Origin: Sulfobacillus benefaciens
GTDB lineage: Bacteria > Bacillota > Sulfobacillia > Sulfobacillales > Sulfobacillaceae
Direction of reading: 5' to 3'
DNA length: 44,867 nt
NCBI GenBank assembly: GCA_003023725.1
Contig: PXYT01000027.1
Location: 1-44,867, forward strand
The notes beneath the pieces were generated by a model that was not told where the DNA came from, did no database searches, and saw only the letters and a program-made list of their open reading frames with translations. The number at the start of each line of letters is the position of its first letter. The first letter of the stretch is position 1. A program made the position numbers and the translations under genes. This document shows positions 2,692 through 44,702 of the stretch, piece after piece.

Positions 2692-4506
2692 TTATTCGAC
2701 AGTTACCGACTTTGCTAAATTACGCGGTTGATCGACATCCTCACCCCGGGCCACCGCCGTATAGTAGGCCAGCAACTGCAAGGGAATAGCCGCCAAAACC
2801 GGTGCCAACAAAGTGTCCCCAATGGGGATCGGAATATAGTGATCGATAGGAAGAGTGGCGGGAAACCTTTCGTCGACTATTCCCCACACCTCAGCGCCGC
2901 GTGCCTTCACCTCCAAAATATTCGACACCGTCTTTTCCCACACATCATGTTCCGTCAGAATCGCCACAACCGGTACGCCTTCTTTGATTAGAGCTAATGT
3001 TCCGTGCTTTAATTCCCCCGCTGGATATGCCTCGGCATGAAGATAAGAGATCTCTTTAATCTTCAACTGACCTTCCATCGCCAAGGCATAGTCCAGTCCC
3101 CGACCGATATAAAAGACGTCGTGAGTCCCAGCCATGCGTTCCGCCATGGTCGTTATCCCGTCTATGCCCTTCAATACCTTATGCCCAAGAAATGGAAGTT
3201 GCAGCATACCCTGAACCAGATCGGGGCGCGCTCTCCCCTTGATCCTGGCCAAAAGAAGCGCCAAAAGGGAGAGAACCAAAATTTGGGTCGTGTAAGCTTT
3301 GGTGGAAGCCACCGCTATTTCAGGTCCTGCCAACGTATAGGCAACCGCATCGGATTCCCGCGCCACGGTGGATCCCACAGTATTGGTGATACTGTACGTA
3401 AAAACGCCCTGCTCCCGTGCCAAGCGCAGACACGCCAACGTGTCTGCTGTTTCCCCGGACTGAGAGATGGCCATAACCATGGTGCCTCTATCAAGAATCG
3501 GACTCGCGTAACGAAATTCCGAGGCCACATCCACGTTAACCGGGATTCGGGCCAAACGCTCAATTAGGGCTTTCCCAATGAGACCAGCGTGGTAAGCCGT
3601 TCCGGCAGCCACAATCTGAATGCGTTGATATTCTGCAAGCTGGTCCCATGTCAGTCCGATTTCTTGCGGGACTACCTCGTTGTCGCGGATACGTCCTAAA
3701 AGACAATCCCCCCAGACATCCGGTTGCTCCATAATTTCTTTTAGCATAAAGTGCGGATATCCTCCGCGTTCTGCCTGTTTGATATCCCAATCCACGGTGA
3801 TAACCGGGCGGTCAATACGGGATCCAGCCTTATCCGTAATAACGACCGAATGCGGTGTCACGACGGCCATGTCCCCATTTTCCAGAATTTGCGCTCGTTT
3901 GGTTGCGGCGAGAAAGGCACTGAAGTCCGATCCCAAATAATTGGCATTGGTCCCCAATCCAATAATGAGAGGGCTTGTGCGCCTCACAGCCACAATTCTT
4001 TCGGGGTCCCTGGATGAAATGGCCAGAAACGCATAGGCTCCCTGCAACCGGGTTTCTGCCTGTCGGACCGCACCCACCAAGTCTTCGGCCCCTCCATACT
4101 CTTCCAAAAGATGGGGGATTACCTCGGTGTCGGTGTCAGATTGAAAGCGGTGTCCCTTGGCTATGAGTTCCTCACGTAAGGTCTGGAAATTTTCAATGAT
4201 ACCGTTATGAACCGTCGCAATTTCCCCCTGACAGTCCGTGTGAGGATGCGCGTTTTCATTGGTAGGTCGCCCGTGAGTTGCCCACCGAGTATGCCCGATC
4301 CCGCAAGGAATACCAGAAGGCAGAGCTTCCAACAATTCCCCTAAAGCAGCGAGTTTTCCCTGGGTTTTCTGAATTGCAATGCCGCTTTTCGATGCCAAAG
4401 CGATGCCTGCCGAATCGTATCCGCGGTATTCCAGACGTTTCAATCCATTAAAAATAAAGGGGAGAGCATCTTCCTTCTCCCCGACAAAGCCAACGATTCC
4501 ACACAC
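2692..4506 (-). CDS. glmS: Glutamine-fructose-6-phosphate aminotransferase (isomerizing)
   Basis: GlmS makes glucosamine-6-phosphate from fructose-6-phosphate and glutamine, the entry step to UDP-GlcNAc and peptidoglycan. The protein has 604 residues, a normal length. The N-terminal glutaminase domain begins Cys-Gly-Ile-Val-Gly, with the catalytic Cys directly after the start. Two SIS sugar-isomerase domains follow (ISQSGETADT, STKAYTTQ), and the end is NLAKSVTVE. The start is GTG at 4504-4506: the catalytic Cys must be residue 2, and TTGGAGGCG lies just upstream. An upstream in-frame ATG at 4546-4548 would bury that Cys. The gene is last of the cdaA operon and is preceded by a glmS ribozyme. 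No convincing terminator is visible after it. Confidence 0.97.
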   Translation of the reverse strand: MCGIVGFVGEKEDALPFIFNGLKRLEYRGYDSAGIALASKSGIAIQKTQGKLAALGELLEALPSGIPCGIGHTRWATHGRPTNENAHPHTDCQGEIATVHNGIIENFQTLREELIAKGHRFQSDTDTEVIPHLLEEYGGAEDLVGAVRQAETRLQGAYAFLAISSRDPERIVAVRRTSPLIIGLGTNANYLGSDFSAFLAATKRAQILENGDMAVVTPHSVVITDKAGSRIDRPVITVDWDIKQAERGGYPHFMLKEIMEQPDVWGDCLLGRIRDNEVVPQEIGLTWDQLAEYQRIQIVAAGTAYHAGLIGKALIERLARIPVNVDVASEFRYASPILDRGTMVMAISQSGETADTLACLRLAREQGVFTYSITNTVGSTVARESDAVAYTLAGPEIAVASTKAYTTQILVLSLLALLLARIKGRARPDLVQGMLQLPFLGHKVLKGIDGITTMAERMAGTHDVFYIGRGLDYALAMEGQLKIKEISYLHAEAYPAGELKHGTLALIKEGVPVVAILTEHDVWEKTVSNILEVKARGAEVWGIVDERFPATLPIDHYIPIPIGDTLLAPVLAAIPLQLLAYYTAVARGEDVDQPRNLAKSVTVE

Positions 4507-41757: not shown

Positions 41758-41786
41758 ATGACACAAGAGTGCTAACATGGTATAAT
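41758..41786 (+). promoter_or_regulatory. Promoter of the ccdA operon
   Basis: ATGACA (41758-41763, one mismatch to the consensus -35) and a perfect TATAAT (41781-41786) are spaced 17 bases, with an extended TGG just before the -10. The start of ccdA is 30 bases downstream after GGGAGGAG. This is the clearest housekeeping-type promoter in the window. Confidence 0.8.
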
Positions 41787-41815: not shown

Positions 41816-42520
41816 ATGAGTCTTTCCCTTGTTTCGCTTGGTGTGGCTTTTGGAGGCGGTTTGGCCTCGGTTCTTTCGCCCTGTGTTTTGCCTTTGATTC
41901 CGTCCTATCTCACTACGATGGCCGGAACAGCGTTAACTCGCGAGGCGGTTGAAAACCGCCGGATTCAACGCCGAGTGATGCAAAATGCGATATTGTTTGT
42001 CGCCGGCTTTTCAACGGTTCTGGTGTTGGCAGGGTTGGGTGCCAGTGCTCTGGGACAGTTTTTCCAATTCCATCGTCATGTCATTGCTCAACTCGGAGGC
42101 TTGGTCACTATTGTTTTTGGCTTGGAGATTCTGGGCCTTATTCAAATAGGACTGATGAATAGAGATGCCCATTTGCCCTTGGCTGCCCCAAAAGCTCAAG
42201 GGTTGTCGGCGGCTTTGTTAGGTATTGTGTTTGCCGCAGGATGGACGCCTTGTGTTGGCCCCATTCTCACCAGCATTTTGCTCCTGGCAGCTCGCTCGGA
42301 CACCTTGGGAGCCGGGGGAGTTATGCTAGCCTTTTATTCTCTGGGTTTAGCCGTTCCATTCTTAATTCTGGCTTTTTTCCTCGGAAAAGCTGCTCAACTG
42401 ACGCACCGAATGGGGCAATACCTTCCATGGATCGAACGGGTTTCCGGGGCCCTGTTGGTCATATTAGGTGTCATGTTGTTGACAGGCTGGTTCGACAGGA
42501 TTCCAAACATTGTAGCTTAA
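41816..42520 (+). CDS. ccdA: CcdA-family thiol-disulfide membrane transporter
   Basis: CcdA moves reducing power from cytoplasmic thioredoxin across the membrane to extracytoplasmic thioredoxins. The 234-residue protein has six helices. The two redox cysteines are Cys23 in LSPCVLPLIPSYL and Cys146 in GWTPCVGPIL, the standard Pro-Cys pairs. The start ATG follows GGGAGGAG, and the promoter lies 30 bases upstream. It heads a three-gene operon with a TlpA/ResA-like protein and an Lgt-like membrane protein, so the electrons likely go to the next gene's product. Confidence 0.94.
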   Translation: MSLSLVSLGVAFGGGLASVLSPCVLPLIPSYLTTMAGTALTREAVENRRIQRRVMQNAILFVAGFSTVLVLAGLGASALGQFFQFHRHVIAQLGGLVTIVFGLEILGLIQIGLMNRDAHLPLAAPKAQGLSAALLGIVFAAGWTPCVGPILTSILLLAARSDTLGAGGVMLAFYSLGLAVPFLILAFFLGKAAQLTHRMGQYLPWIERVSGALLVILGVMLLTGWFDRIPNIVA

Positions 42521-42542: not shown

Positions 42543-43049
42543 ATGCTGATATCGCGAAATCTCCTGGGACTCATTTTTATCCTCGTGCTCGCCCTGAGTA
42601 TTATCATCAAACCCCCTCGCCCTTCTGGTTTTATGGCCCAGAACGGACAGACCGTTAATAATATGATGGTAATCACGGCCTCGGGGCAGCGAAAGACCTT
42701 GGGGCAAGTACTGAACCACCGCCCCGGGTTGCTCAACTTCTTTGCCACATGGTGTCCTGCATGCCGGATGGAATTGCCTGATTTGCACGAGGCCATTTTG
42801 TCACATGACAAATTAATTTTATTGAGCCAGGGTACCCCAGCCGCCACGGCGGTTTTCCTTCGGCAATATGGTATTTCGCCGACATCGAGCTTCTACGATC
42901 CGTCGGGTCGTCTGTTCAATAGTTTTTTTGTCACGACGCTTCCCACCTCATACTTCGTCAACCGGAACGGAAGGATTGTCAGCAAGGTGATCGGTCCTAT
43001 GACTCCAGCTCTCCTCCGGGAAAACCTCAGGCGCGCCAATAAGAGTTAG
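42543..43049 (+). CDS. TlpA/ResA-like membrane-anchored thioredoxin
   Basis: This 168-residue extracytoplasmic thiol-disulfide protein has an N-terminal signal-anchor (about 5-22, RNLLGLIFILVLALSIII) without a lipobox cysteine. A thioredoxin fold with FFATWCPACRMELP follows (Cys71, Cys74), with the cis-proline loop TTLPTSYFVN (Pro134). WCPAC is typical of TlpA/ResA reductases used in cytochrome c or oxidase assembly. It starts 22 bases after ccdA; the ribosome binding site is weak (GAAGAG close to the ATG), which suggests coupling. Its physiological target cannot be told. Confidence 0.9.
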   Translation: MLISRNLLGLIFILVLALSIIIKPPRPSGFMAQNGQTVNNMMVITASGQRKTLGQVLNHRPGLLNFFATWCPACRMELPDLHEAILSHDKLILLSQGTPAATAVFLRQYGISPTSSFYDPSGRLFNSFFVTTLPTSYFVNRNGRIVSKVIGPMTPALLRENLRRANKS

Positions 43050-43061
43050 GAGGGATTGTCG

Positions 43062-43757
43062 GTGTATCTGCCCTCCATGATTTTTGTGGGGCCCTTGCCA
43101 TTGTTTTCGGTGTTAATGATTCTTGGCATTCTTGTTACCTCCTTCGTTTTATCCCGCTACCGGGCGCCTGAACGTGTTCAAGACTTGTTGTGGGCCGTGA
43201 TCGTGGGTGCAGTGTTAGGGGAAAAGGGTCTCTATATTGTTACCGGATTTCACTACTATCTCGCCCACCCGACTCATTTGCTCTTTACACCCCAAAGTTC
43301 TTTAGGAACGTGGGGCTTAGGAATCGGCGCAGGTACCGGTGCCATCATTGTCCTTATCCATGCCCGATCGCAGTGGAGGCGTACCGACTGGGATTATGTC
43401 TCCTTAGCCTTGAGTCCTGGGTTGGCACTCTCGAGTTTAGGTTTCAATTGGTTAGGTATGGCCAGTCGGATCCCGGTTTTCAGCATTTCTTATCATCACT
43501 TGAACCGCTTTGCCACATTTTTTCTCTTTTTCCTGTTGATGAGCGCAATCAGTCTCCTGTTGTTCCTCTTTTACCGCAGCCATCGTTATGCGCCTGGACA
43601 GCTCGCTGGAATATTTGCCTTATTAACCGCCATCGCGTTGGTCATCGCTCAGATGACTGCCGTCCGCTACCAGTTTCGGCTCCAGGGCCTGGACTGGATG
43701 GCCATGGTCCTGGCGATGACAGGCTACCTTTTGATGGGCCGCACTCCAAACCGCTGA
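43062..43757 (+). CDS. Lgt-like polytopic membrane protein lacking recognisable Lgt catalytic motifs
   Basis: The 231-residue protein has about seven hydrophobic helices. The N-terminal half resembles prolipoprotein diacylglyceryl transferase (Lgt): FVGPLPLFSVLMILGILVTS, then LLWAVIVGAVLGEKGLYIV. The Lgt signature with the catalytic Arg and Asn-Gly-Glu segment is replaced by LALSSLGFNWLGMASRIPVF. It is therefore unlikely to lipidate proteins and may be a divergent paralogue or unrelated. The start GTG 43062 lies eight bases after GGAGG; a TTG at 43056 is too close. It follows the TlpA-like gene by 12 bases, and its stop overlaps the ispH promoter. Confidence 0.6.
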   Translation: MYLPSMIFVGPLPLFSVLMILGILVTSFVLSRYRAPERVQDLLWAVIVGAVLGEKGLYIVTGFHYYLAHPTHLLFTPQSSLGTWGLGIGAGTGAIIVLIHARSQWRRTDWDYVSLALSPGLALSSLGFNWLGMASRIPVFSISYHHLNRFATFFLFFLLMSAISLLLFLFYRSHRYAPGQLAGIFALLTAIALVIAQMTAVRYQFRLQGLDWMAMVLAMTGYLLMGRTPNR

Positions 43758-43783
43758 CATTGCCAAGTGCGGTACAATATAGT
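43754..43783 (+). promoter_or_regulatory. Candidate ispH promoter
   Basis: CTGACA (43754-43759) and TATAGT (43778-43783) are spaced 18 bases, each with one mismatch to consensus. The -35 overlaps the stop codon of the preceding gene. The ispH start is 31 bases downstream of the -10. Confidence 0.6.
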
Positions 43784-43814: not shown

Positions 43815-44702
43815 ATGGACGTCATCAAAATTCATCCCCGCGGCTATTGTTACGGTGTCGTTGATGCCATAACGATGGCCAAACGCGTTGCACAAGATCC
43901 CAATATTCCCCGACCGATTTATGTTTTGGGACAGATCGTTCATAATCGGCATACCGTATTGGAACTCGAAAGTTTCGGGATTCGCACCTTGGACGGTTCT
44001 TCCCGCCTGGAATTGCTGGATCAAGTGCCCGAGGGCTCCACGGTCATCTTTACAGCTCACGGCATTTCGCCTGCAGTCAAGACCCGGGCACAAGAACGGC
44101 ATCTGACATTTTTTGATGCCACTTGTCCCGATGTTACCAAGACTCATACCCTTATTGAGGAAAAAATACGCCAGGGTTATTCCATTATTTATATCGGAAC
44201 CAAGGGCCATCCAGAGCCCGAGGGGGCCATGGGAGAGGCGCCACAGGGAAGAGCTTTTCTGGTCACTCATGTTCAGGATGTAGGCAACGTGCCCTTTGAT
44301 ACCAAAACACCCCTGGCCATCGTAACTCAAACGACCTTGAGTCAGTGGGACACCCAGTCCATTATTGAAGCCTTGCTGGTAAAATACCCGCAAGCCGAGG
44401 TTCATAACGAGATTTGTTTAGCCACACAACTGCGCCAGGAAGCTGCTGTTCAAACGGCCAAAGACGTGGACATGGTGGTCGTCGTGGGGGACAGGCGGAG
44501 CAATAACTCCAATCGCCTGGTTGAAGTTGTAGAGCAAATTGCCCACAAACCGTCCATCCGCGTAGAAAGTGTGGACGACCTCAGACCAGAATGGTTTGAG
44601 GGGGTCACGACGGTAGGCGTTACAGCGGGATCATCGACACCAAGCCGTATTACGCGTGAGGTCATTCAACGCCTCGAAACCTTGGACCAGCGTGGAGATT
44701 AG
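43815..44702 (+). CDS. ispH: 4-hydroxy-3-methylbut-2-enyl diphosphate reductase (LytB)
   Basis: IspH performs the last step of the methylerythritol phosphate pathway, making IPP and DMAPP. The 295-residue protein holds the three iron-sulfur ligands Cys12 (GYCYGVVDA), Cys104 (DATCPDVTKTH) and Cys201 (NEICLATQ). Substrate-binding blocks are QIVHNRHT, GHPEPEGAMG and TQTTLSQWDT. The start ATG follows GAAGGAGCG; a longer in-frame start at 43767 lacks a site and would span the promoter. It supplies precursors for the polyprenyl diphosphate synthase in this window. Confidence 0.97.
   Translation: MDVIKIHPRGYCYGVVDAITMAKRVAQDPNIPRPIYVLGQIVHNRHTVLELESFGIRTLDGSSRLELLDQVPEGSTVIFTAHGISPAVKTRAQERHLTFFDATCPDVTKTHTLIEEKIRQGYSIIYIGTKGHPEPEGAMGEAPQGRAFLVTHVQDVGNVPFDTKTPLAIVTQTTLSQWDTQSIIEALLVKYPQAEVHNEICLATQLRQEAAVQTAKDVDMVVVVGDRRSNNSNRLVEVVEQIAHKPSIRVESVDDLRPEWFEGVTTVGVTAGSSTPSRITREVIQRLETLDQRGD

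Follow-up and report, generated by a model that had tools for sequence, protein, structure and literature searches.

The gene at positions 43062..43757 (forward strand) of the window, by which we mean the whole stretch of 44,867 nucleotides of Sulfobacillus benefaciens DNA analysed here, probably encodes a pseudoenzyme that is derived from the prolipoprotein diacylglyceryl transferase Lgt and that serves as a membrane subunit of an extracytoplasmic thiol-disulfide reductase of the TlpA type. We call this protein of 231 residues, and the family to which it belongs, LgtL. The genome of the window (labelled G000) is 98% complete.

Near the end of the window the genes ccdA, tlpA, lgtL, and then ispH follow each other on the forward strand. 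CcdA (41816..42520, 234 residues) is a membrane thiol-electron importer of the DsbD_TM type (PF02683, 64 bits, over the cut-off) and the only PF02683 match that a profile search found in the genome. TlpA (42543..43049, 168 residues) is ResA/StoA-like (PF00578, 41.3 bits, over the cut-off) and contains one hydrophobic segment, residues 7-25, as an N-terminal anchor helix. Given these two family matches, the active site WCPAC of TlpA, and Cys23 and Cys146 of CcdA, which are invariant in ten aligned CcdAs, the two proteins belong to the CcdA/TlpA thiol-reduction pair. The gaps of 22 nt between ccdA and tlpA and of 12 nt between tlpA and lgtL bear out the tight linkage that the initial annotation had described. 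We place the start of lgtL at the GTG at 43062, which fits better than the alternative TTG at 43056 in the open reading frame list because AGGAGG is found just upstream of it and the starts of the homologues (MY[LIV]P[SA]) coincide with it. Concerning the one strong promoter that had been proposed, there is a promoter-like site, ATGACA-17-TATAAT with a TG before the second hexamer (41758..41786, forward strand), 5' of ccdA that matches 11 of 12 positions. However, the scan found two promoter-type sites in the region compared to a mean of 2.5 in shuffled sequences, and the site is therefore only suggestive of a ccdA promoter. The housekeeping gene ispH (lytB; 43815..44702, forward strand), a conserved neighbour in the genus, is probably not part of the LgtL module and may have its own promoter, for which a promoter-like site at 43754-43783 is a candidate. 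Upstream of ccdA, frames run in the opposite direction that, named from their sequences, are presumably ftsE/ftsX and uvrB. The genome encodes a second TlpA-like frame away from ccdA (G000:C68, L158:4536-5234), whose neighbours we take, also from their sequences, to be ClpB- and DnaJ-like.

The match of the window LgtL to PF01790 covers residues 13-199 and scores 20.5 bits (E 3.3e-4), which is below the curated cut-off of 24.9, and five orthologues from the same genus are over the cut-off with 30-42 bits. Pfam did not detect PF01790 in the LgtLs of G018, G011, and G056, and the window protein is only 17-24% identical to members outside its own genus (g11, G035). A profile of 11 LgtLs, in contrast to a decoy comparison with CcdA as another membrane family (probability 0.3), aligns by hhalign to 12 catalytic-type Lgts over 218 columns with a probability of 98.6 and an E-value of 1.2e-15. 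At the level of sequence, these profiles establish that LgtL is homologous to Lgt over nearly its whole length. Thus, the kinship noticed initially is real, but the likeness is not limited to the N-terminal half to which it had been assigned. A structural model, built from an alignment of three rows with a mean pLDDT of 43, predicts seven helices at low confidence. LgtL accordingly resembles Lgt in the whole-length profile match, in these predicted helices, and in a framework of glycine, proline, and aspartate positions, but it is shorter (about 230 residues), is almost always accompanied by TlpA, and lacks Arg143, His103, Tyr235, and mostly also Arg239 and Glu243. In addition, a true lgt is present elsewhere in G000. 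This gene, for which the initial annotation had suggested looking, is of the catalytic type, scores 126.7 bits, and lies on a separate contig beside a frame that, from its sequence, we take to be glutamate-1-semialdehyde-aminotransferase-like; tblastn did not find ccdA or tlpA within the 10 kb read around it.

Aligned to E. coli Lgt and 31 further catalytic-type Lgts (E. coli numbering), 20 LgtLs confirm that the catalytic signature is replaced, as had been supposed. Arg143 is found in all 32 Lgts but in none of the LgtLs, Arg239 in all 32 Lgts and in only two LgtLs, and neither a histidine at column 103 nor Tyr235 in any of the 20; retained catalytic residues, which would have spoken against the initial reading, did not occur, and Glu243 is mostly absent. 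The window LgtL has neither of the two arginines that mark the enzyme, with serine at 143 and leucine at 239. In the larger table of 35 rows without Arg143, Tyr235 is gone in all 35 and Arg239 in 26, while nine have kept Arg239. His103 alone is no clean test because 15 of the 31 catalytic-type Lgts have aspartate and one has glutamine at this position. These 15, which comprise the true Lgt of G000 itself (L032:3867-4694, GGLAYDGA) and those of 14 relatives, still keep Arg143, Arg239, and Glu243. The positions preserved in LgtL are Pro13, Gly67, Gly71, Pro89, Gly104, Gly108, Asp129, and Gly145.

The conservation of these glycines, prolines, and aspartate and the subgroup with Arg239 would fit an active acyltransferase of altered specificity. 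However, this is improbable given that Arg143 and Tyr235 have disappeared from 35/35 and Arg239 from 26/35 proteins, and that the best-conserved columns of LgtL do not contain a new polar set beyond Asp129. A study of E. coli Lgt found that the enzyme cannot do without Arg143 and Arg239 and that His103 does not tolerate replacement (PMC4728403). That LgtL has lost every activity of Lgt is nevertheless inferred rather than demonstrated because of the nine rows with Arg239. A role of LgtL as thiol or electron relay was considered and rejected. The window LgtL is free of cysteine and no alignment column has cysteine in more than three of the 35 family members, so that LgtL itself is no relay of thiols.

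The constant partner of LgtL is TlpA, while CcdA is frequent but not obligatory. In 154 genomes of the same class we compared 35 domains that lack Arg143 with 31 that keep it; the domains of the window, G030, and G026 are additional to the 35. Three loci in which no domain reached 110 residues (G026 C154, G049 C12, G024 C26) were dropped before the count, as was L209, which repeats L107. TlpA is fused, or lies on the same strand no more than 300 nt away, in 34 of the 35 Arg143-less domains but in only four of the 31 others (Fisher 3e-13), where, as for the p-value below, the rows are related to each other and independence is overstated. In the one remaining case (G135) TlpA is found at 441 nt. 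Restricting the comparison to loci fetched from LgtL-profile matches gives 15/16 versus 3/20 (p 4e-6); this subset comprises 40 places that were selected manually among about 155 matches listed, partly the top ones and partly new places, and a few of them came from other profile searches. Without the six loci for which a ccdA or tlpA neighbour was known beforehand (G132 C62, G134, G135, G057 C93, G063, G082) the ratio is 10/10 versus 3/20. The linkage of Arg143-less LgtLs to TlpA extends across 11 families of the class sample. Since no match to ccdA was found up to 1.5 kb from several TlpA-LgtL loci (G008, G035, G140, G062, G093, G142, G063), TlpA alone, and not the CcdA-TlpA pair, has to be regarded as the constant partner. 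The initial proposal of a repurposed Lgt fold working with CcdA and TlpA is thus partly supported: this linkage, the fusions, and the common clade described below speak for it, but CcdA is a frequent rather than a constant member. A TlpA-profile match is also found no more than 300 nt from four of the 31 Arg143-keeping Lgts, so that the linkage may in part be older than the loss of Arg143. Catalytic-type Lgts beside a thioredoxin-like or ccdA frame are known from other Bacillota genomes (G059, G069, G078, G380, G395). They share the TlpA-profile or CcdA neighbour with LgtL but differ in having kept Arg143 and Arg239, and their linkage is occasional, as these four of 31 in the class sample illustrate; no TlpA match lies within 300 nt of any of the 38 Arg143-keeping Lgts in the phylum sample.

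Among 30 frames flanking 19 loci, a further partner family recurring across most families was not found. Local neighbours are MFS transporters at three loci of f40 and in G008, polysaccharide deacetylases in G142, G140, and G143, amine oxidases at both f47 loci, and, as single cases, a heavy-metal ATPase in G048 and a multicopper oxidase in G063. Separately, some catalytic-type Lgts with cysteine in place of Asn146 adjoin thioredoxin- or TlpA-like frames (L030 in G043, L215 in G059, L208 in G069, L227 in G078, L222 in G092), and in four Bacillota genomes Lgt-type proteins with an RxGCD[VI] motif and both Arg143 and Arg239 lie 33-808 nt from a CcdA match (L248 in G380, L238 in G395, L240 in G173, L233 in G216).

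In ten open reading frames LgtL and TlpA are fused, and both domain orders occur. LgtL precedes TlpA in G048, G126, G134, G056, and G057 (two frames), and TlpA precedes LgtL in G062, G093, and G142 (one genus) and in G143. The fusion of G062 is encoded in a genome assembled into one contig of 3,566,135 bases. Both domains are over the Pfam cut-offs for AhpC-TSA and LGT in G048 (95 and 53 bits), G057 C18 (82 and 35 bits), G142 (74 and 33 bits), and G134 (96 and 64 bits). The LGT part of the second G057 fusion scores 18.5 bits and that of the G056 fusion has no LGT match, and the fusions of G062, G093, G126, and G143 were identified with profiles built in this analysis instead of Pfam. An additional hydrophobic segment is found before TlpA if LgtL comes first, and none is found between the domains if TlpA comes first. 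The body of Lgt is arranged with its N-terminus outside and its C-terminus inside. If LgtL has the same arrangement, this pattern of hydrophobic segments would put TlpA outside in both fusion orders. One LgtL-TlpA frame, L197 of the draft genome G135 (about 3066-4306), is broken within LgtL, and intact relatives of it exist.

The order ccdA-tlpA-lgtL-ispH, divergent from ftsE, is conserved in six of the seven other genomes of the genus, which rules out the concern of the initial annotation that the linkage to ccdA might be peculiar to this strain; in the seventh, which is 61% complete, no match to the set was found. In genus g11 of the same family, five genomes carry the lgtL module, one of them split over two contigs. 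In many other members of the family and the order, the ccdA gene adjoins ispH without tlpA-lgtL in between (G011, G012, G022, G029, G031, G036, G037), or ccdA and ispH are slightly apart, with no recognised tlpA-lgtL (G009, G018, G041). A tlpA-lgtL pair is located elsewhere in the genomes of G008, G011, and G018. In G035 the order is tlpA-lgtL-ispH, and the PF02683 match of this genome is at a distant place. In total, LgtL was found in 36 genomes with 11 family labels, namely in the genome of the window, in 32 genomes of the class sample with Arg143-less domains, in G094, where it is beside TlpA and which belongs to the same class, and by synteny in G026 and G030. The broad LgtL profile matched at least 294 of 398 genomes of the phylum. 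Of the 40 places read, 39 are outside the class and 38 of these have kept Arg143; in the exception, G452, no match to TlpA lies closer than 1.5 kb. Searching the same 398 genomes with an LgtL-TlpA fusion profile, with which the TlpA-LgtL order would not appear at full length, gave only matches to the TlpA part among the matches listed. LgtL thus looks restricted to the class in the class (154) and phylum (398) samples.

A maximum-likelihood tree of 59 rows separates 20 LgtLs from 39 Lgts across one branch (support 100/99), which was recovered in 100% of 200 bootstrap trees, although long branches may inflate this split and eight rows are of odd composition. Drawn with midpoint rooting, the LgtLs of G048 and G132 are placed adjacent to the Lgts, and the remaining 18 form a group. 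As far as such a tree can tell, a single origin of LgtL is favoured but not proved. It is hard to believe that LgtL is a chance neighbour or a decaying copy of lgt. The gene is indeed the fastest-changing one of the operon, with 57-67% identity to the closest four, while CcdA is 82-83% identical in three of these. However, the pairwise dN/dS values of lgtL (0.106, 0.168, 0.134, and 0.160 for four of five pairs, the fifth being saturated in dS) contradict decay, as do the gene order in the genus, the linkage in 11 families, and the ten fusions. Compared to 0.10-0.15 for tlpA, 0.03-0.09 for ccdA, and 0.03-0.06 for ispH, they show that lgtL is under purifying selection and changes at a pace like that of tlpA.

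For the initial annotation, cytochrome assembly was an option next to extracytoplasmic thiol transfer. In G000 this option is not supported, and it was rejected there as a role of the module. ResB was not detected in G000-G007 by profile search, and it is present in only 19 of the 154 class genomes. The single Cytochrom_C_asm protein among the matches listed for G000 (G000:C66, L270:5160-5966) is a HemX-like frame of 268 residues, whose flanking frames presumably are hemA-like (glutamyl-tRNA reductase) and hemC-like (porphobilinogen deaminase); between hemA and hemC is the usual place of HemX. Neither ResB plus ResC of System II nor, among the matches listed, CcmF plus CcmC of System I is found, so that G000 has no recognised system for cytochrome c maturation or heme ligation, and the module is nonetheless present. 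More generally, LgtL could be an accessory of cytochrome c maturation in which TlpA, like ResA or CcmG, would keep the thiols of apocytochromes reduced. There is a precedent in Bacillus subtilis, where, according to passages in PMC9145763, CcdA serves cytochrome c maturation together with ResA. ResB is encoded in the LgtL genomes G062, G093, G142, G140, G143, and G074, and Cytochrom_C_asm also matches frames of about 680 residues in the same-genus genomes G001, G003, G004, and G005. However, the rarity of ResB in the class and the HemX-like character of the G000 match render this role very improbable, and where G062 and G093 encode ccdA-tlpA next to ResB, this pair is separate from the locus of the TlpA-LgtL fusion.

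The operon might instead be a StoA-like system for thiol reduction in the spore or cell envelope, in which LgtL would be just a structural anchor without any function of its cavity. Among the NCBIfam models, StoA matches the window TlpA best (59.9 bits, E 2.6e-16; ResA 54.8 bits, both below their cut-offs), and passages of PMC9145763 describe StoA of B. subtilis as important for the synthesis of the spore cortex and as reduced by CcdA. However, 59.9 bits is far below the curated StoA cut-off (NF041202) of 210 bits, and an additional anchor seems unneeded because TlpA, both in the window and in the fusions, is still anchored by a helix of its own. We regard this explanation as unlikely, though not far-fetched.

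For LgtL as a subunit of a TlpA-type reductase, the part of the initial idea that concerned a partner in extracytoplasmic thiol transfer is supported beyond the window, except that LgtL, having no cysteine, would not pass on thiols itself. In the most likely arrangement, LgtL would contact TlpA on the external side of the membrane and would hold and position it there. TlpA would be re-reduced by CcdA or, in genomes with ccdA at a different place, by another donor. LgtL would neither transfer diacylglyceryl groups nor carry electrons; instead, a thiol substrate embedded in the membrane might dock in its old Lgt cavity and so be presented to TlpA. In E. coli Lgt the cavity opens outward and sideways into the bilayer, as passages of PMC4728403 describe. 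Co-occurrence and fusion do not by themselves prove a complex of LgtL and TlpA. A more specific and rather doubtful suggestion is that the module is a thiol-repair step of lipoprotein maturation that reduces an oxidised lipobox cysteine. In that case LgtL would use the former Lgt cavity to capture the signal-peptide and lipobox region of the prolipoprotein, TlpA sitting on LgtL would reduce the cysteine, and the precursor would then pass to the true Lgt, which needs the free thiol. Two operons would fit this suggestion because a catalytic-type lgt follows the module on the same strand, in the order ccdA-lgtL-tlpA-lgt in G132 (L089) and ccdA-lgtL::tlpA-lipoprotein-like-lgt in G057 (L087).

Compared to the described systems of CcdA with ResA, StoA, or TlpA, the module consists of the same two types of proteins with intact CxxC and CcdA cysteines but contains a third, Lgt-derived membrane protein, and its genome G000 has no ResB match. 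To our knowledge, such a third protein is not part of any described CcdA/ResA/StoA/TlpA system, and membrane pseudoenzymes whose new role can be traced are rare. In the full-text literature searched, whose scope comprises few of the subscription papers, no title or beginning of an abstract points to a relative of Lgt that works with TlpA or CcdA. PMC3914529, PMC10543277, and PMC9145763 treat known CcdA systems, and in PMC9145763 Lgt is mentioned separately as a lipoprotein enzyme. If LgtL and TlpA form a complex, LgtL would represent a kind of membrane partner that is new for TlpA-type reductases, and it would make it possible to ask what the cavity of Lgt can bind when no chemistry is performed, including the possibility of a reductase for lipobox cysteines. 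In addition, naming genes by PF01790 alone as prolipoprotein diacylglyceryl transferase would lead to misnamed genes in these bacteria.
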